Position numbers and translations under genes: made by a program. A stretch of 25,167 bases of DNA from a virus, in the IMG/VR virus record IMGVR_UViG_3300035698_012377, positions 1 to 25,167 of that record. One strand, 5' to 3'. The notes below the pieces were generated by a model, which made no database searches, was not told the origin of the DNA, and saw only the letters and a list, made by a program, of their open reading frames with translations. This document shows positions 3,767-20,490 of the stretch, one piece after another (the first letter of the stretch is position 1; each line of letters begins with the position of its first letter).

Positions 3767-4870
3767 TTATCTGCTCATTAAAGCCTTGTAATTCAACTCC
3801 GATGCCGCCTCGTTTCCTTTGTACTTTCGTACTTTTTTCACAATCGGATCCTGCCCTCCAGCAACTTGTTTCTTTAATCCTTTGTTTTTGGAGATGGTGA
3901 CTTTCAAAGCATCCACTTCTACTTTCAAGGCAGCAACTTCAGTTACGGATGTAGCCTTTTCAGTTTCCAAAGCAGCCTTTTCAGTTTCCAAAGCGGTCTT
4001 TTCAGTTTCCAAAGTAGTCTTTTCAGTTCCAAAGGCAGTCTTTTCATTTTCCAAAGCAGTCTTTTCATTTTCCAAAGCAGCCTTTTCAGTTTGCAATGTG
4101 GTCTTTTCAAGTTCCAAGGCGGTCTTTTCAAGTTCCAAGGCGGTCTTTTCATTTTCCAATGTAGCCTTTTCAGTTTCCAAGACAGAAACCTTAGCTTCTA
4201 AAGCTGTTTTGGCGTTGCTAATTTTTTCCAATTTGGAAACTGCTGCCTCTTCAGTTACATCCTTTCCCCAAAATTTGTCCCAAACACTCATTTCATTTGA
4301 CATAGTATTCTCTTTTAAGATTGATTTTTTGTATTCCTTAACTTCATTAATTCCCAACTGCTTTTCAAGTGAAAAAGTAGCACCTTGGTTTGCTGGTATT
4401 GAAACGACAGAAACTTCTAACAACTCCAATTCTTTAATTATCCAAGCCTCTTTTTCTGGAGAGTAGTCAAAGTCTAAAAGATAGAATCCGATTGAAAAAG
4501 TTTTAAGCAGACCCATTGAAATTTTCCGCCCGGCTACATCTGAAACGTCAATTGCACATTTTACAAAAAGTCCTTTCTCGTCAACCAAAAGTTCCACGAC
4601 TTTTCCAATGACTTTATCAAGCGAGTGATTAAATAATACAATCGGATTCGCACGGAAATTTTTCAAGGCTTTTTTATTCCAAGCGGATGGAGGAATTATA
4701 TCACCGTGTCTGTCAATTTCGTCCGTACTTGCGTAGCCTTCTATGTATATGAATCCATCTACATCGCCTTCCGCCTTTTCCGCTTTTTTAAAGTTTGCAG
4801 AAATTTCGAGCCTCTTATTTTTCACCCTTAATGCCGTTGCACTTCTACTGCCTTTAGTATCGTTATTCAT
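3767..4870 (-). CDS. Prohead protease fused to a heptad-repeat scaffold domain
   Basis: From the chosen ATG at 4870 the protein is 367 residues. Residues ~30-170 are an HK97-type prohead protease (U35/S78-like): His82 in VLFNHSLDKVIGK, Ser126 in LKTFSIGFY, and the family signature LLEVSVVSIPANQGATF. Residues ~190-330 form a long coiled coil containing eleven consecutive seven-residue xxEKxxL units (232-308), as expected for a scaffold or delta domain. The frame stays open upstream to 5011, but that stretch (Cys/Phe/Tyr-rich) is not protease-like and a candidate promoter box lies inside it at 4905-4912, so 4870 is preferred. An internal ATG at 4303 (residue 190, MSNEMSVWDKFWGK) could make a free scaffold, as lambda Nu3 is made within C. 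The capsid gene follows 60 bp downstream. Confidence 0.85.
   Translation of the reverse strand: MNNDTKGSRSATALRVKNKRLEISANFKKAEKAEGDVDGFIYIEGYASTDEIDRHGDIIPPSAWNKKALKNFRANPIVLFNHSLDKVIGKVVELLVDEKGLFVKCAIDVSDVAGRKISMGLLKTFSIGFYLLDFDYSPEKEAWIIKELELLEVSVVSIPANQGATFSLEKQLGINEVKEYKKSILKENTMSNEMSVWDKFWGKDVTEEAAVSKLEKISNAKTALEAKVSVLETEKATLENEKTALELEKTALELEKTTLQTEKAALENEKTALENEKTAFGTEKTTLETEKTALETEKAALETEKATSVTEVAALKVEVDALKVTISKNKGLKKQVAGGQDPIVKKVRKYKGNEAASELNYKALMSR
3947..4177 (-). repeat. Eleven tandem 21-bp units encoding coiled-coil heptads
   Basis: Exactly eleven in-frame 21-bp units encode the series ETEKATL, ENEKTAL, ELEKTAL, ELEKTTL, QTEKAAL, ENEKTAL, ENEKTAF, GTEKTTL, ETEKTAL, ETEKAAL, ETEKATS. 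The DNA units are nearly identical to one another, which explains long open frames on the other strand in this stretch. The number of units could change by slippage or recombination without breaking the frame. Confidence 0.95.
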
Positions 4871-5112: not shown

Positions 5113-5361
5113 CTACTTTTTAAGCCTATTTGCGACATCCTTAACGTGTTCTTTACTCACATTATACTTATTAGCTATTTCCGTATAAAATCGCCCTTGA
5201 AGAATCTCTGACTGAATGAAGGTACGGTTCAACTCGTATTTTGACAGACTACTAAAGAATATCAATTGACTGTCCGATAATTGCGAAACATCATTTATTT
5301 CTACTCCAAGTACATAGGTTGCGGCAGTTAGTATTGATTTATACTTTGTTTCTAAAGCCAT
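5113..5361 (-). CDS. Small putative helix-turn-helix protein
   Basis: An 82-residue, mostly helical protein. The last ~28 residues (GRFYTEIANKYNVSKEHVKD, then VANRLKK) read as a helix-turn-helix: first helix FYTEIANKY, turn NVS, recognition helix KEHVKDVANRLK, like the HTH of sigma region 4 or small phage regulators. The N-terminal part (MALETKYKSILTAATYVLGV) has no match that I recognise. Its ATG overlaps the tape-measure stop by 10 bp, so it is made with the tail genes, and it lies just upstream of the candidate head-operon promoter. A role in switching on the head genes is possible but not shown. It could equally be a small tail protein that happens to look HTH-like. Confidence 0.6.
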   Translation of the reverse strand: MALETKYKSILTAATYVLGVEINDVSQLSDSQLIFFSSLSKYELNRTFIQSEILQGRFYTEIANKYNVSKEHVKDVANRLKK

Positions 5362-8300
5362 GTAGAATTTATTTTTACCTGTTCTACCTCATCCGTTTTT
5401 GCAATTATGTCTTTAGTCGTCACAATTACTTTTTTATCATTAATCGCTTTAGTAATTCTATCGGATAGCATCTCTCCAAATTTGTTCATGTTATTGTTAT
5501 TCATCTGCTGTTGTTGAACAAATGGTGGCGTTAATGAAGTTGGCAACTTACCACTAAAGCCACCATTTGCCAAAGTTGGTAATCTACCTCCCACGGCTTT
5601 TATTCCAGCACCCTTCAAAAAACTCCGTCCTGTACCCTTGTAAGTGTTTAAAGAATCTGCAATTTGTAATGGAGTACCTGTTAGATTTAATCTTTCTTTT
5701 GATGCCAAAGCTTTTCGGTTTATTACTGCCTCCCCCTTTTCAATTTCGATTAATTCTCCACCTTCGCTATGAAGACGACCTGTATCTAAGTACATACCTT
5801 TTTCTGCTTTGTCAATTGCCGCAACTTCAAAAGCCGCCTTTACTCCAATGGCTGCCGCTGCAAAAAGCGAAGCTGGAAATGGAGTAGTCGCCAATACAGT
5901 AAGAATGGCTGCCGCTGCATTTATTACCGCCATTCGTTTTTTTAACTTCTTGTCCTTTTCGAGTGCTATTTCACTAGCTTTCTCGGACTGCACTCTGGCT
6001 CTGGTTTCTATGTCTTCCTTACCTTTGGAGTATTCTTCTTCAGTAATTAATCCAGCTGCTTTTTGAGCATCCAAAGTCTGTAACTCCATTTCTGCACGAC
6101 TCTTGTAATATTCCAAGTCCTGTTGTAATTGGCTTTGAATTTGGGCAGCCTTTGCATCCGATATTCCATTAAACACGTCATTTGCCAATCCAATTGCGGC
6201 ATCTTTGACTTGCTGACCACCTTCTTCATCCGTACCAAACAAGTTACCAATGCCTGTATTGATAGCAGTTCCCGAATCCTGTCTAAAGTCATTCGCTTTG
6301 TTTACGAATCCTGTAGCCTTAACAGGTGCCTGTAAGGATTGAATTTCGGACTGTAATTTTTTCAGTTGGCTTAATTGGTCTTCATTCAATACTCCTGTAG
6401 ATTCCAACTCGGCTCTTATTAGTTTTAACTTTTGATTGGCAATATCTAAAGCAATTTTCTTTTTAGCTTCCGCCAACTCTTCTTCCCCAACTATTGTAAG
6501 TTGGGCAAAATTGTTTTGAATGGCAAGTTCGTCATCCAGTTTATCTGCTTTGAATTTATAAGAATTTTCTGTTTCCGCTTTAGACTTCAAAGCATATTTT
6601 TCATCAATGTCAGAAAGGTTGCTAGAATGTTCTATTTCACGTTGCTCAATTATTTTATTAATTGACTCGTTAAAAAGGATCTCATTTTTAGATAGTGATT
6701 CCTTATTGATTAATTGTAGTTTCAAGTCTTCAATATCGTTTGAGAATCTATCTTGTTTTAATTTCTTGTCCTTTATTATTCCATCTTCGAGGTTTTTTAA
6801 CTCTTCTTCTGTTGCCTTTCTTTGTATTTTTTGTAATTCACTCGCCAATTTTTCAGCTGCCTTAATCTTTTCTTCTGCTTTCTTCTCCTGTTCTTTTTTA
6901 AGTTTTTCAGCCTCCTTTTCAGCTGCCTTCGCTTTCTTTTCAGCTGCCTTCGCTGCCTTCTCATTTTCGGCTTTGGTAAGTTTGGCTTTTTCCATCGCCT
7001 TCTGTTCCATAACTTCGGCTTTTGCCGCATCCTCTTTAGCTTTTGCAGCCGCATCCGCACTCGCCTTGCTAACTGCCTTTTCAGTTTCCAAGTCATCTAT
7101 ACTACCAGTGAACCCTTCTTTAAATGCCTCGCCAACACTTTTGCCCGAACGCAATATATCTACTCTTTTTGCCTTTAGTTTTAGTATTTCTTTATCTAAA
7201 TTTTCACTCGTCTTACCAAAGGGATTAAGTTTTTCTGCCTCCAGTTTTAAGATTTCCATCTGAAGTAAAATATCCTTAAAGGCGTTTATAAGATTGTCCT
7301 TCATTTGAGTAGCACCAGCAATTACACCATTTAAAATATTGGGTAGATTTTTGAGAAGGTTCATCCAATTTTGGACATAATTTCTTAACAAATCAAATGC
7401 AAATGATAATAAATCTATGTTTTTAATTCCCCACAACACGGCATCTACAACGTTTGTCAATACATCCACAACAAAAGTAAGCACCCCAGCAACTACATCA
7501 AAAACTTCTGCCATTATACTGCCTTCATCCGATACACCCTCCGTAGCTTCTCCCGTATCGAATAGCATTGAGTAATACTCGCCAAGGCTACTAAACAACT
7601 CCTTAAAAGTTTCAATGACAGGCGAAAATGCGACTATCAATTCATTGAGGGTTTCTATTAAAAAGGCTTGTGCCTCGGTCTGCAAAACGTTAAAAGCACC
7701 GCTCTCGTCTGCCAGTAATTTAGTCAATTCATTTTTAGCAGTAGATAGTCGTTCGTTGGCATCCGCTAAATTATTGGTTCTGTCCAAATATGCCTGTTGT
7801 TCGACTGTCAATTCTTTAGTACCATTACGCATATCAGTTACGGTTTCAAGATACTGAAGACCGACTTCAGAAAGGATTGCGGCATCCTCACCAGCACCTT
7901 TGAACACGTCTGCAATTAAAGTCTGTTGTTCTTTAATTGGTAGATTAGAATCTCGAATCTTTTTAACAAAAACTTCTATACTACTCCCCACAGACACGGT
8001 TCCATCATTGATGTCTTTGAAGAATTTATCTGCGTATTCTACTCCAAAAGCTTTTTGGAATGCATCTTCAGTTGTCTTACTTTGTTCGGTGACAGAAAGT
8101 CCAAACTCCTTTATTGCGTCAACTCCTTTGTCATTATAAAATCCTAAGAGTTCATTAGCAGTTGCGGCATCTATAAAATCCTTTGCAGACAGACCCGCAT
8201 TTTTAAATTGCGATGGGTACTCCTTTACCAAATCCAAAAACTTACCACTCGCATCGGCACCGCCTTGAAAGCCACCCTCAATTAATTCCGATGCCTCTAA

Positions 8301-9323
8301 AAAAGATATTCCATATTGCAATGAAAAGTTTTTGGTAGCTTCCAATAGTTCATCCTGTTCCTTACCATACGTGTTGGCAATTTTATCCACTTGGACCACA
8401 ATTTTATCCAATTCATCTCCTGTGGCGTTACTTAACAAAGCTACTTTATCACGAAATACTGAAAACTCGGAAACCAATTCATTCACCTTAACTGCCGCTG
8501 CCACGGCACCAGTAGCAATTGCCCCAAATATAGCACCCGTTGCAGCACCTTTGCCAAGTCCAGAAATTAAACCGCCAAAGTCACCAAAGCCACCAGCCAA
8601 GTTCATCAAACTGTCTTTGTACCTTCCCACGTTTGACCTTCCGTCGTTTAAACCCTGATCAAAATCCACTATTTTCTTTTTGCCTTCCCCAACTTTTTTG
8701 TAAAGTTCGTCATATGCCTTATTTGTTATGGAAATTCCTTTCACATGACCATCCAATTCATCTTGAAGATTCTTTACTTCAACTCGAAAATGCGACATCG
8801 AGCCTACATTTTTCTCCAAAGCCTTACTCTCATCGTTTAAAGCCTTGTTTAGTGACTTTTTTTGATTCTGTAAGACCTTTGTTTCTGCAATTATTTTTTT
8901 TAATTGTGTTTCTTCTTTGGACAGAATGAGATTAGATTTATCTCTGCTGTCGTTCAAAGCCTTCACAGCCTTATTATATTGTTGTTCCGATACAATATTG
9001 GACTTTAATCTTTTGGATAGCTTAAACAGTGCAGAGTCCGCTTCGGTAGTTGTCATTTTGCCATCTCTTACACGCTTCTCCACTTTCCTTTGAGCATCGG
9101 CGTATAACTTTAAATTAGAGTTTGATTCCTTATAAGAATCCGTTAGTTTTTTGAGGTTGTCGTCATATTGGCTTATGACCTTATCTGCTGACTTGATTTC
9201 CTTTTTTAAATCGGATTTCGCCTTGGATGTTTTTGCCAAGGCTACTTCTACCTTGGCAATATTCTCGACTGTTTTTGAATGACCAAGTACTTCTATTTCA
9301 AAAGCAATTGTCTTGTTTGCCAT
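5352..9323 (-). CDS. Tail tape measure protein
   Basis: From the ATG at 9323 (MANKTIAFEIEVLG, 10 bp after the previous stop) the product has 1323 residues. An in-frame ATG at 9392 would start inside the preceding gene and is less likely. Residues ~1-220 are coiled coil. Then comes a Gly/Ala-rich hydrophobic stretch (GLGKGAATGAIFGAIATGAV) and a TP901-like tape-measure core with NATGDELDKI and the DLVKEYPSQFKNAGLSAKDF region. Next is a Lys/Ala/Glu-rich coiled coil (about 790-860), and last a C-terminal hydrophobic segment plus the HSEGGELIEIEKGEAVINRKAL motif region common at tape-measure ends. It sets tail length and may help DNA entry. It implies a long-tailed particle, most simply a siphovirus. 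It lies ~6 kb from the chaperone-like genes rather than next to them, which is unusual. Confidence 0.9.
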   Translation of the reverse strand: MANKTIAFEIEVLGHSKTVENIAKVEVALAKTSKAKSDLKKEIKSADKVISQYDDNLKKLTDSYKESNSNLKLYADAQRKVEKRVRDGKMTTTEADSALFKLSKRLKSNIVSEQQYNKAVKALNDSRDKSNLILSKEETQLKKIIAETKVLQNQKKSLNKALNDESKALEKNVGSMSHFRVEVKNLQDELDGHVKGISITNKAYDELYKKVGEGKKKIVDFDQGLNDGRSNVGRYKDSLMNLAGGFGDFGGLISGLGKGAATGAIFGAIATGAVAAAVKVNELVSEFSVFRDKVALLSNATGDELDKIVVQVDKIANTYGKEQDELLEATKNFSLQYGISFLEASELIEGGFQGGADASGKFLDLVKEYPSQFKNAGLSAKDFIDAATANELLGFYNDKGVDAIKEFGLSVTEQSKTTEDAFQKAFGVEYADKFFKDINDGTVSVGSSIEVFVKKIRDSNLPIKEQQTLIADVFKGAGEDAAILSEVGLQYLETVTDMRNGTKELTVEQQAYLDRTNNLADANERLSTAKNELTKLLADESGAFNVLQTEAQAFLIETLNELIVAFSPVIETFKELFSSLGEYYSMLFDTGEATEGVSDEGSIMAEVFDVVAGVLTFVVDVLTNVVDAVLWGIKNIDLLSFAFDLLRNYVQNWMNLLKNLPNILNGVIAGATQMKDNLINAFKDILLQMEILKLEAEKLNPFGKTSENLDKEILKLKAKRVDILRSGKSVGEAFKEGFTGSIDDLETEKAVSKASADAAAKAKEDAAKAEVMEQKAMEKAKLTKAENEKAAKAAEKKAKAAEKEAEKLKKEQEKKAEEKIKAAEKLASELQKIQRKATEEELKNLEDGIIKDKKLKQDRFSNDIEDLKLQLINKESLSKNEILFNESINKIIEQREIEHSSNLSDIDEKYALKSKAETENSYKFKADKLDDELAIQNNFAQLTIVGEEELAEAKKKIALDIANQKLKLIRAELESTGVLNEDQLSQLKKLQSEIQSLQAPVKATGFVNKANDFRQDSGTAINTGIGNLFGTDEEGGQQVKDAAIGLANDVFNGISDAKAAQIQSQLQQDLEYYKSRAEMELQTLDAQKAAGLITEEEYSKGKEDIETRARVQSEKASEIALEKDKKLKKRMAVINAAAAILTVLATTPFPASLFAAAAIGVKAAFEVAAIDKAEKGMYLDTGRLHSEGGELIEIEKGEAVINRKALASKERLNLTGTPLQIADSLNTYKGTGRSFLKGAGIKAVGGRLPTLANGGFSGKLPTSLTPPFVQQQQMNNNNMNKFGEMLSDRITKAINDKKVIVTTKDIIAKTDEVEQVKINSTWL

Positions 9324-9333
9324 ATTATTATTT

Positions 9334-11931
9334 TTAGTACTGAAAAAAGTAAGATTTGACAAAGTCTTTGCCAAAATAAATCCATTCCACACGTCCGGGT
9401 AGGCTGCTCACATTAATTGTAAGACCTCCACCAAATACGATTGCCGTAACTTCAAAAGTAACACTCAAGGTGTCAATTTCACCCGAATATAGTTGTTTGG
9501 ATTCTGTTTGTTCGGTGCCTCTATAATTAAAGGAAACAGAAGTTGTACCAGTCACTCCACCAATATTTTTAACCTTAACTGTAATTGTAAGTTCTTCTGC
9601 CTCTAAATTGAATGAAGACGTAATTTCATAAAATTCAAAAATCGGTATTTGATAAATTGGTAAGAATCTTTTTGATAAGATTTGTACAAACTCCGTATAA
9701 GTCGAACCTACATCATTAGGGTCGTACTTTGATATTTTATTAATCCGTGCCAAAATTAATTCATTTCTTAATCTTATTTTGTAGATACTCCTATAATCTC
9801 TCCTTAATGAATTAACATTATTGAAACCAGCGATGTCATAAGGACTAAAGTATATGTACCCAGAAAGCAATTTGCTTTGTTCTACTTCATTTATGAACTG
9901 CTGAAAATGTTTAGTTACCAACCCGACACAATTAACTTGGTCATCCATATTTAAACTATTCATGTTTACATTTTCGTCATCGAAGAAGAATAAATGTGGT
10001 ACATTAGTTCGTGTCGTACTGCCTTGTTTCCAAGTATCGGATGACAATGTCTTTAAGCCATCATAATGAAGGATTCTTACTCCATGACCTTCAAACTTTT
10101 CAATTAATCGAATTTTCGGAAGCTTCAGCTCATTCAATCCAATTTGTCCAATAAAGTCCATAAATGTAGCTGAAAAATCAAATTCTATCTCATCAGTTTC
10201 CTTTCCCTTAAATTGGCTATTGTTTGAAACTACGGAACTGCCATAGTCGATATTGAAAATATTTTTTAAGTAAGTAAGTTGAAAATCATTGTCATCCTGT
10301 TTATACTTATATCGAGTATTTTTTCCCTTCTCATCCATTATCTCGAATATTTCAAGTTCCTTACTTGCGTCCACTTTATCTTCCCAACTTATAACATTTG
10401 AGTAGTCGTAAAACTTGTCGTAATCTTCTATGTATATAACACGTTTCTCCAAGTCTGTCATAACGATTAATTCAAAGTTCCTAATTATAGAAGTTATAAA
10501 TTCGAGTTGTGACCATTGTGGTAAGAATCGCATTAGATGGATGGTATCTCCTTCGCTCTTTGGAATAAATCTCAATCTATTCTCAAACCGACAAGCACCC
10601 TTCAGAAATGTTATATCTCCATCGGATGACAAGTATCTAACTATAATATAGACCTTTGAGGTTATTGGAATTTCCATGTAGGAAAATGTAGTCGTTTCAA
10701 TGTAGTGGGTTCCTGTATAAGTAGCCGTGCCAACTCCATTTTGATATGACTTATTTCCAGAGGCATCCTCAACAACTACAAAGAATTGTAACACCATTGA
10801 TTTGGTGACAGTAAACCTTAAAGCGAAGTAGAAAGTCTGTGTTAAGGCTGCCCTCGGGTTGTAAAGATGATTCGATACTTCAAAGGAATTAGTGTTGTCA
10901 AAATTGGTTTGATAATCTACATTGTCAAATTCTATAATATACTCGGCCGTACTTGATGTTCCATTGGAAACGACTTTATCTTCATTAATACCTGCTCTAA
11001 ATTTGAAATTATCTTCAAATCTTAGTTGACCATCAAAGCCTGTAAATTGCTCATGAGCGATGTATTTTTTAGATAGTATATTATTCAAGAAATTAGATTC
11101 TATCTTGAAACCGATGCCTAAAAAGATTCTCTGGAATACTTCAGCAACGTTTATAACAGGGTACCTGTCCGTAACTCTTAATCTGTTGTTTCTGCCAACT
11201 ATTTCAATATACCCATATCCATCTGCTACAAATTGAATGTTATCACATAATATTTTAGAGTTTCCTTTACCATCATAGTCATTGGTGACAGTAAATGAGT
11301 TCTCTAAAATATTATAGGTGTCTTCTTCAAATCTAAAAATCAATATATCTTTATTGGAAAAGTCATTCGGGAATACTTCTCCATTGATTATAAATTCTGT
11401 TTTATTGGAGTTTGCTAGAATAGCTTTGTGAACGTAAAAAACGCCTAAAAAGTCACTATTTATCACAGGATAAATGTAAGGTTTAATGGCGTTTGGAACT
11501 TCAGCAGACTCTTGGCTTGTTTGGGTCCACGGATGCGAGTAGTCCCAAAAGTCCAAGTCCCAAAGCATTAACTCGATTAAATCGTTTGCCCAATTACCAC
11601 TATTCCCAATTATATAGAACTCGAATACTGTTTTATTATCAACTATCTTAACTTTTGAAAACTTTACTCTACCAGAAATTAAGGTACTAGAACTCTCAAG
11701 CCTTGCGGTATATTTTTTGGATAGGCGGATGGCATCTTTTGAGGTAATATAATCTGGAAACCCAAACACACGTCTTACTTTATCCGTTGCATCCAACTCG
11801 ATTAAATAGGAAACCGCATTAGAACGTTCTTTCGTGTTTCTAATGTCAATTACGGAATAATCGAATAGGGTTTCAATGCTTTTGGAAACATCGAGTAATT
11901 CATTATTAATATAAAGGCGTGTGTTATTCAT
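9334..11931 (-). CDS. Large tail-tip or baseplate protein
   Basis: An 865-residue, beta-rich protein. The N-terminus (RLYINNELLDVSKSIETLFD, then IRNTKERSNAVSYLIELDAT) resembles large tail proteins of Bacteroidetes phages that begin with a Dit-like domain ('l.ing...d.......t....di.di..r.s..s..i.l...d'). The middle repeats this style (RYPVINVAEVFQRIFLGIGFKIES). The last ~100 residues (about 760-860; SFNLEAEELTITVKVKNIGG onward) look like an Ig-like or CARDB-like adhesion domain. The gene sits between the small 122-residue gene (9 bp) and the tape measure (10 bp). Likely roles are distal tail, baseplate hub or host contact. The exact component cannot be named without a structure search. Confidence 0.6.
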   Translation of the reverse strand: MNNTRLYINNELLDVSKSIETLFDYSVIDIRNTKERSNAVSYLIELDATDKVRRVFGFPDYITSKDAIRLSKKYTARLESSSTLISGRVKFSKVKIVDNKTVFEFYIIGNSGNWANDLIELMLWDLDFWDYSHPWTQTSQESAEVPNAIKPYIYPVINSDFLGVFYVHKAILANSNKTEFIINGEVFPNDFSNKDILIFRFEEDTYNILENSFTVTNDYDGKGNSKILCDNIQFVADGYGYIEIVGRNNRLRVTDRYPVINVAEVFQRIFLGIGFKIESNFLNNILSKKYIAHEQFTGFDGQLRFEDNFKFRAGINEDKVVSNGTSSTAEYIIEFDNVDYQTNFDNTNSFEVSNHLYNPRAALTQTFYFALRFTVTKSMVLQFFVVVEDASGNKSYQNGVGTATYTGTHYIETTTFSYMEIPITSKVYIIVRYLSSDGDITFLKGACRFENRLRFIPKSEGDTIHLMRFLPQWSQLEFITSIIRNFELIVMTDLEKRVIYIEDYDKFYDYSNVISWEDKVDASKELEIFEIMDEKGKNTRYKYKQDDNDFQLTYLKNIFNIDYGSSVVSNNSQFKGKETDEIEFDFSATFMDFIGQIGLNELKLPKIRLIEKFEGHGVRILHYDGLKTLSSDTWKQGSTTRTNVPHLFFFDDENVNMNSLNMDDQVNCVGLVTKHFQQFINEVEQSKLLSGYIYFSPYDIAGFNNVNSLRRDYRSIYKIRLRNELILARINKISKYDPNDVGSTYTEFVQILSKRFLPIYQIPIFEFYEITSSFNLEAEELTITVKVKNIGGVTGTTSVSFNYRGTEQTESKQLYSGEIDTLSVTFEVTAIVFGGGLTINVSSLPGRVEWIYFGKDFVKSYFFQY

Positions 11932-15114: not shown

Positions 15115-15375
15115 TTATGATTTGTCATATAATGAACTCGCATAATTACTTTCTGCAATTTTTATAGACACAAGCCTAAAAAAATCATAGAGGTTCATTT
15201 GTTCGACTTTTTTTACTTCTGTTGGACTTTCTGAAAGTGATACGATTTGAGCATACCATCCAAACTGTTGAAGTTCGGTGTCGTCTCCTTTTTTAACTCC
15301 GCTGCCAGCAAAAATATTTGGGAACGTTTCTTCAAGGTGTTGAAAAGTTCTACTAAGCAAAAAAAAACCTCCCAA
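15115..15375 (-). CDS. Tail-chaperone extension (T-like domain) in the -1 frame
   Basis: This open frame overlaps the last 163 bp of the 276-residue gene in the -1 frame. It encodes a domain with FGWYAQIVSLSES and KVEQMNLYDFFRLVSIKIAE, which looks like the conserved C-terminal (T) part of tail-assembly-chaperone fusions. Its only upstream start is a TTG at 15375 just before a run of nine T, so independent initiation is unlikely. A -1 slip at T TTT TTT (15366-15360) would join codon 228 of the upstream gene to the TTG at 15360 and give a 309-residue fusion ending at 15115. A simple sequencing or replication error in the T-run is the main alternative. Confidence 0.7.
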   Translation of the reverse strand: MGGFFLLSRTFQHLEETFPNIFAGSGVKKGDDTELQQFGWYAQIVSLSESPTEVKKVEQMNLYDFFRLVSIKIAESNYASSLYDKS

Positions 15376-16043
15376 GCGACATCCATAGTCAGTTCATCCA
15401 TAAAGAGTTCAGCACGACTCAAGGATTTCTGTTCATCATACTTCTCATTTTTCAGTCTGCAATGAATAGCAATTATATTTGATAGGGTTTCAATACGCCC
15501 ACCATCTAGTGCCTTCTCCGCAAGTTGTAAGTCTGCTGCCTCTGTAAATTCGATTGCAGTAACGTTGTTCATCGGTTGTTCAATGGATAAATTACCTATC
15601 TTAAATCGGTTCACCGTTGGCAGATAGAAAGTCTGTCCCCGAAAATCGAATGAACTTATTTTTTTGATTTTCAAATCAATAGGAAAATTCAATACGCCGA
15701 TGATGAACCTACTCAAATACTGTTGATAGAATGTTGTCCTTTGAGTTGGCATTAGTTGGTCAACCAAATTCTCATCTATATCTGTGAGGCATTTTATGAC
15801 CTCACCATAGAGTATTGGCAACGTCTTAATCAATTGTTCATCAGTTAGTGAACTGTTTAGGATGCCAATCTCTTTAGCCATCTCGTCAGTTTGCTTTTCA
15901 ATAGCGAAAGCATAAATCTTTTTGACAGCATCGGGAAACCTCATTGCAATTTTATATAGTTCAACGCCCTGTTTTAAGGTTACATCTCTCCATTCATCAC
16001 AAATATTTATCACGGTGCTGCCGTTCATCTCTCTTTGTACCAT
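15213..16043 (-). CDS. Putative tail assembly chaperone, zero-frame product
   Basis: A 276-residue soluble protein beginning MVQREMNGSTVINICDEWRD-VTLKQGVELYKIAM. The early 'W.dvTlkq' segment, a middle region with TFYLPTVNRFKIGNLSIEQ, and a helical end are typical of a group of Bacteroidetes-phage proteins in the tail-chaperone position; I know the group by pattern only. The reading frame passes through nine T at codons 226-229 (GTT TTT TTT TGC) and then continues 48 more codons that look less conserved (AAELKKETTPNFNSLDG) to the stop at 15213. It is the likely short (G-like) form, with the -1 product as the long (GT-like) form. It starts 7 bp after the acidic 187-residue gene. Chaperones of this type coat the tape measure during tail assembly. 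Confidence 0.6.
   Translation of the reverse strand: MVQREMNGSTVINICDEWRDVTLKQGVELYKIAMRFPDAVKKIYAFAIEKQTDEMAKEIGILNSSLTDEQLIKTLPILYGEVIKCLTDIDENLVDQLMPTQRTTFYQQYLSRFIIGVLNFPIDLKIKKISSFDFRGQTFYLPTVNRFKIGNLSIEQPMNNVTAIEFTEAADLQLAEKALDGGRIETLSNIIAIHCRLKNEKYDEQKSLSRAELFMDELTMDVAWEVFFCLVELFNTLKKRSQIFLLAAELKKETTPNFNSLDGMLKSYHFQKVQQK
15359..15367 (-). promoter_or_regulatory. Probable -1 frameshift site (T9 slippery run)
   Basis: Minus-strand sequence reads GAG GTT TTT TTT TGC in the zero frame, giving a T TTT TTT slippery heptamer (15366-15360). Directly upstream is a purine-rich GGGAGG. A weak 7-bp hairpin (TTTTCAA / TTGAAGA, 15346-15329) lies ~12 nt downstream. The -1 frame opens into the conserved T-like domain. 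Confidence 0.6.
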
Positions 16044-16050
16044 ATTTATT

Positions 16051-16614
16051 TTAGTCTAAAAAGTTTAGTTTTTTTAGAATCTTGCCTAATTCCTTTCTTG
16101 ACCTTTTGAACCTACTCCTACCTCTAAAATTAGTTTTTTGATGGAGTTCATCAAGTTCATCAAATGATTCCAATAGGTAATTAAAAAGCATTTCGAGTTC
16201 CTTACGAAAATAAACTTCCGTTTGTTCATCCGTTTGTTCAGCTGGTTTAATATTCCAAGGCAATGTGTCATCAACAACTAAATTATCCAACAACGGGTCG
16301 TCTTCAGAACTATCAAATGGAGTTTCCATCGGTTCATCTGGTTCATACGGTTTAATTATTTCACCCCGTGGATCTCCTTCATCACTTTCCAATGGTTCAT
16401 CATACGGACTATCCAATGGTTTATCCAATGATTCGTCCATAGCTTCATCAACAGGACTTTTCATCGGTTCATCCAATGGTTTATCCAGAGTCGGTTCCAA
16501 TTCGTTCACAGTCTTTTTTTTCGGTGTCGTGACTCTTTTTTTTCGAGGTTTGCGGACAGCCTTGGTAGGTTTCTTTTGAAGTTCATCACCGCTGCCTTTA
16601 ATTTCATTTTCCAT
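16051..16614 (-). CDS. Low-complexity acidic protein with C-terminal RGxxRFK motif (187 aa)
   Basis: Three parts are visible. Residues ~10-35 are basic and Lys/Arg-rich (TKAVRKPRKKRVTTPKKK). Residues ~40-110 are a strongly acidic, Pro-rich repeat region built of units like DKPLDEPM, DEAMDESL and DKPLDSPYDEPL, probably disordered. Residues ~130-187 are helical and end with NFRGRSRFKRSRKELGKILK. The last part resembles the end of the neighbouring 69-residue protein. Placed between terminase and tail-chaperone genes, it may be a virion-assembly accessory. The mixed charge blocks suggest binding to nucleic acid or another protein, but no function can be named. Confidence 0.6.
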   Translation of the reverse strand: MENEIKGSGDELQKKPTKAVRKPRKKRVTTPKKKTVNELEPTLDKPLDEPMKSPVDEAMDESLDKPLDSPYDEPLESDEGDPRGEIIKPYEPDEPMETPFDSSEDDPLLDNLVVDDTLPWNIKPAEQTDEQTEVYFRKELEMLFNYLLESFDELDELHQKTNFRGRSRFKRSRKELGKILKKLNFLD

Positions 16615-16649: not shown

Positions 16650-16859
16650 CTACTTTTCAAGTAGCATATTATAAATTTTTCTAACTGCTCTTTGCCCTTG
16701 CTTAAATCTAGGTAAGCCTCTATATTTTAAATTCTTTTGCATCACACAAAGTTTATCCATATCAATAGATATTTGCAGAAGTCCATCTTTGATTTGTTGG
16801 CGAAGAGTTTCTTCTTTTTGGTGTTCACTCGGGGCGACGTTGCTAGTTTCCTTTTCCAT
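16650..16859 (-). CDS. Small helical protein with C-terminal RGxxRFK motif (69 aa)
   Basis: I chose the ATG at 16859 (MEKETSNVAPSEHQKEETLR), 19 bp after the large-terminase stop. A frame extension to an ATG at 16910 would overlap the terminase end and add a less plausible 17-residue leader. The protein is helical and ends with LKYRGLPRFKQGQRAVRKIY. That segment lines up with FRGRSRFKRSRKELGKILK at the end of the next gene, so the two share a C-terminal module. The N-terminal half (QQIKDGLLQISIDMDKLCVM) is likely a coiled-coil or dimer helix. Function unknown. Confidence 0.55.
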   Translation of the reverse strand: MEKETSNVAPSEHQKEETLRQQIKDGLLQISIDMDKLCVMQKNLKYRGLPRFKQGQRAVRKIYNMLLEK

Positions 16860-16878
16860 AGTTGTTTTGATTAAATAA

Positions 16879-18279
16879 TTACCATTCACTTTTCCCTTTT
16901 TTCCCAACATGGATAGTTGCAGTTTTTGACTTGTACTCGAAAGCCATACGCATCATTATCATATCTCTCCAATCGGGTGAACGTCCTATTTGTTCTTTAA
17001 TAGTTTTTTTATCCACAATCCGTAACTTTTGGTCATTACTCGGTTGCCGTTTTAAAGTTTCAAGTTCTTGAATAATCTGTTCCTTTTCGTTTGTCGTCAG
17101 GATAGCATCTATATAAATTCCATTGGAGTTTATCTTTTCGGCAAGTTTATAACAGCATTGTGCCTGTGCATTTTGATATTGTTCTACTTCATCTCCTTTG
17201 TGTGGTTTTAATGGAGTTCCATTATTCACGAAAGCCACCGCCCTTGGTAAGAATCCTGTTTTCCCTCCAATTAATCCACCGACACCATCACTATCAAAAG
17301 CAATATTCCTTTGAGGAATTTCGTGTTTTGTTTGGAGATGTTTAATAGCACCTATGATTAAAGCACCTCCCGACTTTTCAAAGCTTTGAACTTCCTTTAA
17401 TCGCCAATTATTCCAACGCCCAACTATGAACTTGTCTGAGCCATAAGCCGCAATATCGCAAGTTAAGTATTGTTTGTTCTTATCTTCTATTTCATCTCCG
17501 ATTTCATTAAGTCCAATATGGTCGTTATGGAATAAGTCCATAATTTTATCGTACTCGCAAAGTGTATTAGGGTCATCGTCATATTCCCAATTACCTTTAA
17601 GCAGACGTTCCTTTTCAGCACCCTTTAATATTCTATTTAAACTGTCAAGGTAGCCACTATCTAACATATTATTGTCAGTTGGCAAGGCTTGGATGAACTT
17701 AATATGCCTTTCTAAAGTATTACTTTGATTCTTTTTATAGATTGAATACAGGTAGTTTTTTGATGGATTACAAGTCTGTAATAATTTACCCTTTAATCCA
17801 TACTTGTCGTTATTCCATCTACCAATTGAAATTTGTAAATTATTCTTACAGGACTCCGTGAACTCTCCAGCTTCTTCTATCCAACCCCTTGTCATTTGCA
17901 TTGAACCAAACCTCTCGAATAAAGGGTCAGAAGGCATATATTTTGCATCCAAAAGATAGACCTTGCTGCCATTATGTAACTTATAACAACTTTCTTGACC
18001 GTTATACTTATAATATTGATTCGTCACGCCCCAATTTTCCAATACCTCAAGTATGGATGGAACAGTAAATTTCTTTAAATCTTTTAAGGTTCTCCTAGCT
18101 ATAAAATAAAAAGTTTCTGGATAGATTAAAGCATCTCCAAATATTAGTGAACATCCTACATATGACTTGCCACTACCTTTAGAACCACCATATACAATTT
18201 CTTCTGTCGTGTCATCTATCCAAAACTTTGAACATTCCTTTTGCTTTAGATTTCCGTTTGTATCGAATAGTATTTCCAT
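16879..18279 (-). CDS. terL: Terminase large subunit
   Basis: A 466-residue DNA-packaging motor. ATPase half: Walker A GGSKGSGKSY (residues 31-40), the coupling region near ARRTLKDLKK, and a Walker B with catalytic acid in RGWIEEAGEF (131-140). Nuclease half with an RNase H-like acidic cluster: Asp275 in YLTCDIAAYG, Asp329/Asp331 in IAFDSDGVGG, and Asp439 in SPDWRDMIMM. The length is normal and all expected motifs are present, so it should be active. It starts at the base next to the small-subunit stop. It docks on the portal and cuts and translocates genome DNA. This is one of the most secure assignments in the window. Confidence 0.95.
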   Translation of the reverse strand: MEILFDTNGNLKQKECSKFWIDDTTEEIVYGGSKGSGKSYVGCSLIFGDALIYPETFYFIARRTLKDLKKFTVPSILEVLENWGVTNQYYKYNGQESCYKLHNGSKVYLLDAKYMPSDPLFERFGSMQMTRGWIEEAGEFTESCKNNLQISIGRWNNDKYGLKGKLLQTCNPSKNYLYSIYKKNQSNTLERHIKFIQALPTDNNMLDSGYLDSLNRILKGAEKERLLKGNWEYDDDPNTLCEYDKIMDLFHNDHIGLNEIGDEIEDKNKQYLTCDIAAYGSDKFIVGRWNNWRLKEVQSFEKSGGALIIGAIKHLQTKHEIPQRNIAFDSDGVGGLIGGKTGFLPRAVAFVNNGTPLKPHKGDEVEQYQNAQAQCCYKLAEKINSNGIYIDAILTTNEKEQIIQELETLKRQPSNDQKLRIVDKKTIKEQIGRSPDWRDMIMMRMAFEYKSKTATIHVGKKGKSEW

Positions 18280-20461: not shown

Positions 20462-20473
20462 CTTTGTTTTTTT

Positions 20474-20490
20474 TTGTAAACTGTTTACAA
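20474..20490. promoter_or_regulatory. Perfect 17-bp palindromic operator in the divergent intergenic region
   Basis: TTGTAAAC-T-GTTTACAA has 8-bp arms with a single central base, the usual form of a dimeric HTH-repressor site. It lies 12 bp upstream of the 118-residue gene. It touches a minus-strand TAATATTG (20495-20488), a one-mismatch -7 box without a good -33. The whole 109-bp gap (20462-20570) serves both divergent genes. On the plus strand TACAATTG (20525-20532) is an equally weak -7 candidate. Confidence 0.6.

Follow-up and report, generated by a model that had tools for sequence, protein, structure and literature searches.

A candidate two-form, tail-chaperone-like protein encoded across an all-T slippery site in phages of Bacteroidota

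We analyzed a 25,167-nucleotide stretch of viral DNA (IMG/VR record IMGVR_UViG_3300035698_012377, positions 1 to 25,167; hereafter the window) from a virus of Bacteroidota bacteria and followed up a prediction, made from its letters alone, that one of its genes uses a programmed -1 frameshift to make two forms of a tail assembly chaperone. This gene is on the minus strand, which the original prediction had left unstated. Its zero frame (16043-15213, from an ATG at 16043 to a stop codon at 15215-15213) encodes 276 amino acids and crosses a run of nine T's (T9, 15367-15359), read as ...GAG GTT TTT TTT TGC TTA.... The run holds a slippery heptamer, T_TTT_TTT, in the zero-frame phase, GT[T TTT TTT] TGC (15366-15360). 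The open stretch of the -1 frame spans 15393-15118, with the stop codon at 15117-15115, and past the heptamer this frame encodes an extension of 81 amino acids plus stop (15360-15115), the C-terminal domain of the predicted long form. The short form would consist of 228 shared amino acids and a 48-residue zero-frame tail, and the fused long form of 228 + 81 = 309 amino acids, with the junction VFF-LLS and the motif FGWYA at residues 261-265. The frame coordinates agree with what had been predicted in this respect, namely a gene crossing GTT TTT TTT TGC, a zero frame that stays open for 48 codons beyond the run, 81 further residues in the -1 frame, and products of 276 and 309 residues.

This T9 is the only single-base run of at least nine within any gene of the window; a second T9 (20467-20475) is intergenic. 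In the separately assembled contig IMGVR_UViG_3300037328_000122, which is 99.77% identical to the window over 12.8 kb, both the T9 and the frame overlap are identical, and thus the layout is not a matter of chance. The T9 is likewise present in the cultured phage P12024L described below. Used as a direct query, the window protein retrieved only the twin contig and no family match. The terminase as a query led to a second phage type (L004 and L005) that shares the gene order and has a homologous overlap at a run of ten T's, where the zero frame reads TCG TTT TTT TTT TGG and the -1 frame runs on to FGWFATLHALAKG. Since this T10 still requires a -1 shift, it answers the objection, anticipated in the original prediction, that homologues might encode the long form in one frame with 8 or 10 T's.

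Terminase-led searches of genomes and viral contigs, combined with an iterated profile, gave more than 20 loci, and in most of them the extension lies in the -1 frame. Aligning all fragments together gave a misalignment, and the N- and C-terminal domains were therefore modeled apart. The family was built by profile iteration; the membership of the window in it was guarded by a leave-one-out test, which was strong for the extension and weaker for the N-terminal part. The C-terminal-domain profile made without the window matched the -1 frame open reading frame of the window with E = 1e-8 (the next best open reading frame had 0.79), and the corresponding N-terminal profile matched the zero-frame open reading frame with E = 7e-5, the best single domain reaching only 0.01. 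Searches of genomes with the extension profile added further Bacteroidota genomes, including one bacterial family (L182, L183, L184; the G103 family) in which 60 of 301 genomes had a single match each, with elements in the gene order of the window where examined; these matches mark either a prophage that is very common or an element of phage origin that the bacteria have retained. The same unannotated two-frame arrangement thus recurs in dozens of related phages and prophages. In the terminase relatives whose genes are arranged differently (11b, P12002L, phi10:1, and Versailles), the extension was not found where searched. Gene product gp10 of Flavobacterium phage 6H (L150, 10044-10939) was left out of the family because of an early stop in the -1 frame. 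It shows a weak fold match (E 0.31) and an unannotated -1 frame open reading frame after the gene, and could be a remote relative of the family or reflect a sequence error.

A cultured relative is the marine Nonlabens phage P12024L, in which the terminase large subunit (TerL, gp39) is followed by gp40 with a T9 (ATA CTT TTT TTT TAT). The -1 frame runs to 24640 and includes KWGWYHTF, and the phage is matched by the extension profile with E = 4.9e-5 and by the N-terminal profile with 2.2e-9. The predicted long form has the junction LFF-LSF, and the zero-frame tail of the short form is YHLGNDLGIYTQ. Phage P12024S has the same arrangement at 99% identity. GenBank lists gp40 and gp41 of P12024L as separate hypothetical proteins, and in PHROGs the P12024L homologue is split between phrog_32199 and phrog_38404, which match its N-terminal part and its C-terminal extension. 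Both stand there as families of their own with unknown function, and the frameshift that would join them is unannotated. The GenBank annotation, in which the 3' part is a 55-amino-acid gene starting at an ATG, would favor a separate gene translated from its own start codon or by reinitiation. We consider this highly unlikely, given that the conserved extension begins at the T-run itself with the heptamer held in phase, that the zero-frame stops lie at variable positions 18-97 codons past the slip, and that the two parts are fused in single-frame homologues.

In total, 48 loci in 18 groups carry the in-phase T_TTT_TTT at the frame junction. This count includes the window and excludes its twin, the groups are those below 70% identity and their number depends on that threshold, and the loci, having been gathered by similarity, are no random sample. 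The run lengths vary (T7 in 15 loci, T8 in 4, T9 in 26, and T10 in 3), so that the shared element is the heptamer alone. The base preceding the two phenylalanine codons is T in all 48 loci, compared with 946 T versus 977 C at comparable two-fold sites, and the phenylalanine codons of the slip site are TTT in 96 of 96 cases, compared with 72% elsewhere. These lengths bear on whether RNA polymerase, by adding one U on the T9, could produce some mRNAs that encode the long form with no ribosomal slip. Runs of more than eight T's have been cited for such transcriptional slippage (PMC3711429), and the window has nine; however, the process depends on run length (PMC1088944, PMC3711429), and the 15 loci with T7 and 4 with T8, which have the same layout, would be poor substrates for it. 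Two homologues (L064 and L114) have at the same place A_AAT_TTT, a standard heptamer with only four T's. Moreover, the T-run loci displayed have F, Y, or L right after the slip, a preference that favors additional T's next to the heptamer. An excess of T9 can therefore arise from F or L after FF in the long form and need not mean transcriptional slippage, which we regard as unlikely.

We used the ratio of non-synonymous to synonymous differences (pN/pS) to compare selection in the two frames past the run. In the -1 frame it was 0.07 for the T10 group, 0.23 for the T7 group, and 0.03 for the pair L051/L052; read in the zero frame, the same stretch gave 1.05 for the T7 group and 0.94 for L051/L052, and every difference within the T10 group was non-synonymous. 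The -1 frame after the run is under purifying selection.

The zero frame has nevertheless left its own traces. Its open stretch exceeds the length expected from synonymous shuffles in all 18 groups (Fisher 1e-8), while the third frame and upstream controls show no such excess. Among 30 sequences of one family, the first eight codons of the extension have a synonymous variability of 0.21, compared with about 0.5 in most other intervals, and the zero-frame peptide YPxLSKP[KR] is largely conserved. Among 18 divergent representatives, a comparison with shuffles that kept the first two codons constant showed excess zero-frame conservation at residues 3-10 (z = 5.3), a weak effect at residues 11-16 (z = 2.2), and none at later residues; the third-frame control was null. 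For close groups (the T10 group), the significance of such conservation was disregarded, as it is inflated by shared descent. For the window alone, zero-frame conservation was not significant in most pairs, the exceptions being L051, L055, and, for part of the stretch, L044 and L180. At the level of the family, the first 16 or so codons past the slip, corresponding to 15359-15312 on the minus strand of the window, thus appear to be read in both frames, and dual coding appears limited to them. Part of this signal could come from an RNA element; our reading of it as a peptide rests on the pattern of positions that are free to vary. The earlier suggestion of a use for both ends, drawn from 48 open codons, is strengthened accordingly by the openness in 18 of 18 groups and by conservation beyond the constraint of the -1 frame.

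The terminase large subunit of the window (16879-18279, minus strand; phrog_2, 1.5e-20) belongs to a minus-strand series that begins with the small and large terminase subunits, two small genes, the frameshift gene, and tail and neck candidates, and continues with an 865-amino-acid protein, the tape measure protein (5352-9392, minus strand; tail length tape measure families phrog_1533 and phrog_3336), a small gene, a head protease, a major capsid protein candidate, and the portal. By gene size, position, and partial similarity, this order is also found in three genomic elements. In most relatives the frameshift gene directly follows the terminase large subunit, whereas in the window the two small genes stand between them, and in this phage group the tail genes and the tape measure lie downstream. 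The two small genes (16051-16614 and 16650-16910, minus strand) resemble each other in a C-terminal stretch (..YRG/FRG..RFK..; pairwise BLASTP E 2e-4), perhaps the result of a duplication, and have no match to a known family. Within the head protease gene, a 21-base unit encoding EKTALE-type heptads is repeated in tandem about 11 times (3953-4180, minus strand), probably as a coiled-coil scaffold part.

Taken together, we consider it likely that programmed -1 ribosomal frameshifting lets the gene yield a tail-chaperone-like protein in a short and a long form. Most ribosomes would read GTT TTT TTT TGC in frame and complete the 276-residue short form, and a minority would slip back one base on U_UUU_UUU, with both tRNA-Phe re-pairing, to make the 309-residue long form with its conserved C-terminal domain; both ends would be under selection over the first 16 or so codons past the slip. 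The shared part would then most likely coat the tape measure and the extension recruit tail tube subunits, as in lambda gpG/gpGT. Comparison among the homologues shows a conserved slippery heptamer, a conserved -1 extension, and a conserved start of the zero-frame end, and the conserved overlap with selection on both frames argues for two products of one gene. The ribosomal nature of the slip, the ratio of the products, and the chaperone role are what we infer from this pattern.

Several observations weigh against this interpretation, some of them at the level of the site. No stable RNA structure was detected downstream of the slip at nine sites (z from -1.9 to +1.3), although low-efficiency tail frameshifts may lack downstream stimulators (PMC5009743). 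Two loci, L082 (11794-12159) and L118 (12047-12400), have a -1 overlap with AGT TTT A and no standard heptamer. In 14 loci, mostly without a T-run, the extension is encoded in one frame; one such relative (L050) keeps FFF, coded TTC TTC TTT. The grounds named at the outset for abandoning the prediction, a long form in one frame or a wrong T count, do not hold in nearly all cases, as the 48 T-run loci all need the -1 shift at any run length. In L018 (2461-3186), an additional T (GGTTCG) just upstream of the T10 brings the long form into a single frame; this is either a real variant or an assembly error. This case, and the error-prone nature of homopolymers, could suggest that the gene is truly a one-frame gene disturbed by a sequencing or assembly error or by a recent frameshift mutation that left a pseudogene. 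We hold this to be extremely improbable, as this layout recurs among 18 divergent groups whose codon phases differ and is seen in a cultured phage and in genomes of bacteria, the T count is constant between near-identical contigs from different samples, and selection is seen in both frames.

The remaining counterpoints concern the chaperone role. Profile searches of the products in Pfam, PHROGs, and NCBIfam gave no match to a known tail chaperone family, and comparisons with hhalign found no relation to lambda G, lambda T, or P2 E. A fold model of the natural fusion in L018 (predicted local distance difference test score, pLDDT, 67) matched no solved structure and mainly resembled uncharacterized viral proteins; the model of the short form of the window (pLDDT 60) was too poor for a structure search. 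Nor is the gene adjacent to the tape measure gene, which lies about 5.7 kb downstream; the gap of some 6 kb had been remarked upon in the original prediction, and it is not peculiar to the window, since the gene follows the terminase throughout the group. Of the proposed lambda G/GT-type chaperone, the short form, the -1 long form, and the in-phase heptamer have thus held up in the comparison of homologues, and the family or fold match and a position just upstream of the tape measure have not. The lack of family matches and the place after the terminase large subunit would suit a frameshifted protein of another kind, for example another morphogenesis factor or a terminase-linked packaging factor. 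We find this possible but doubtful, because the gene leads the tail gene block and because tail chaperones of long-tailed phages usually come in a short and a long form that have their N-terminal part in common (PMC5009743). It is this position in the tail module and the two-form design that make the protein tail-chaperone-like.

On a broader view, we lean slightly towards a widespread and unrecognized family of tail chaperones that Bacteroidota phages make in two forms. The stretch after the all-U site would be truly dual-coding, the short form would have a conserved C-terminal end of its own, and the frameshift site would have been exchanged (T-run, A_AAT_TTT, or in-frame fusion) while the protein design was kept. 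Frameshifting in tail genes is a conserved hallmark of long-tailed phages, and here the two parts of the gene had been filed as separate unknown families with the frameshift unannotated. The finding gives a large number of Bacteroidota phages and prophages a probable assembly factor for their tail module, and the naturally varying slippery sites could be used to test what the Bacteroidota ribosome requires in order to slip. The cultured phages P12024L and P12024S are available for tests of the frameshift gene.

Among known systems, the homopolymers of Thermus dnaX and Shigella mxiE, which undergo transcriptional slippage, are about nine bases or longer; the window has a T9, whereas 19 of the 48 homologues have only T7 or T8. 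Phage P2 E/E+E' resembles the present family in its -1 frameshift on a T-rich heptamer (GGT TTT TTG), although no sequence relation was found, and P2 E, unlike the family described here, adjoins the tape measure gene T and ends its first frame a few codons past the slip. Lambda G/GT shares with it the common N-terminal part, a longer product made by a -1 frameshift near the end of the first frame, and the tail-gene neighbors. The two differ in the heptamer, which is all T here, and have no detectable sequence relation; lambda G/GT lies between the tail tube and the tape measure, whereas the gene described here follows the terminase, and the zero-frame end runs 18-97 codons past the slip with a conserved start. 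For lambda gpG/gpGT, the binding partner of the shared part is the tape measure, and that of the extension is the tube protein (PMC5009743). Judging by its position and two-form design, the frameshift gene would function as a tail chaperone; we do not file it as a member of a known chaperone family, and propose instead that it may work like one.
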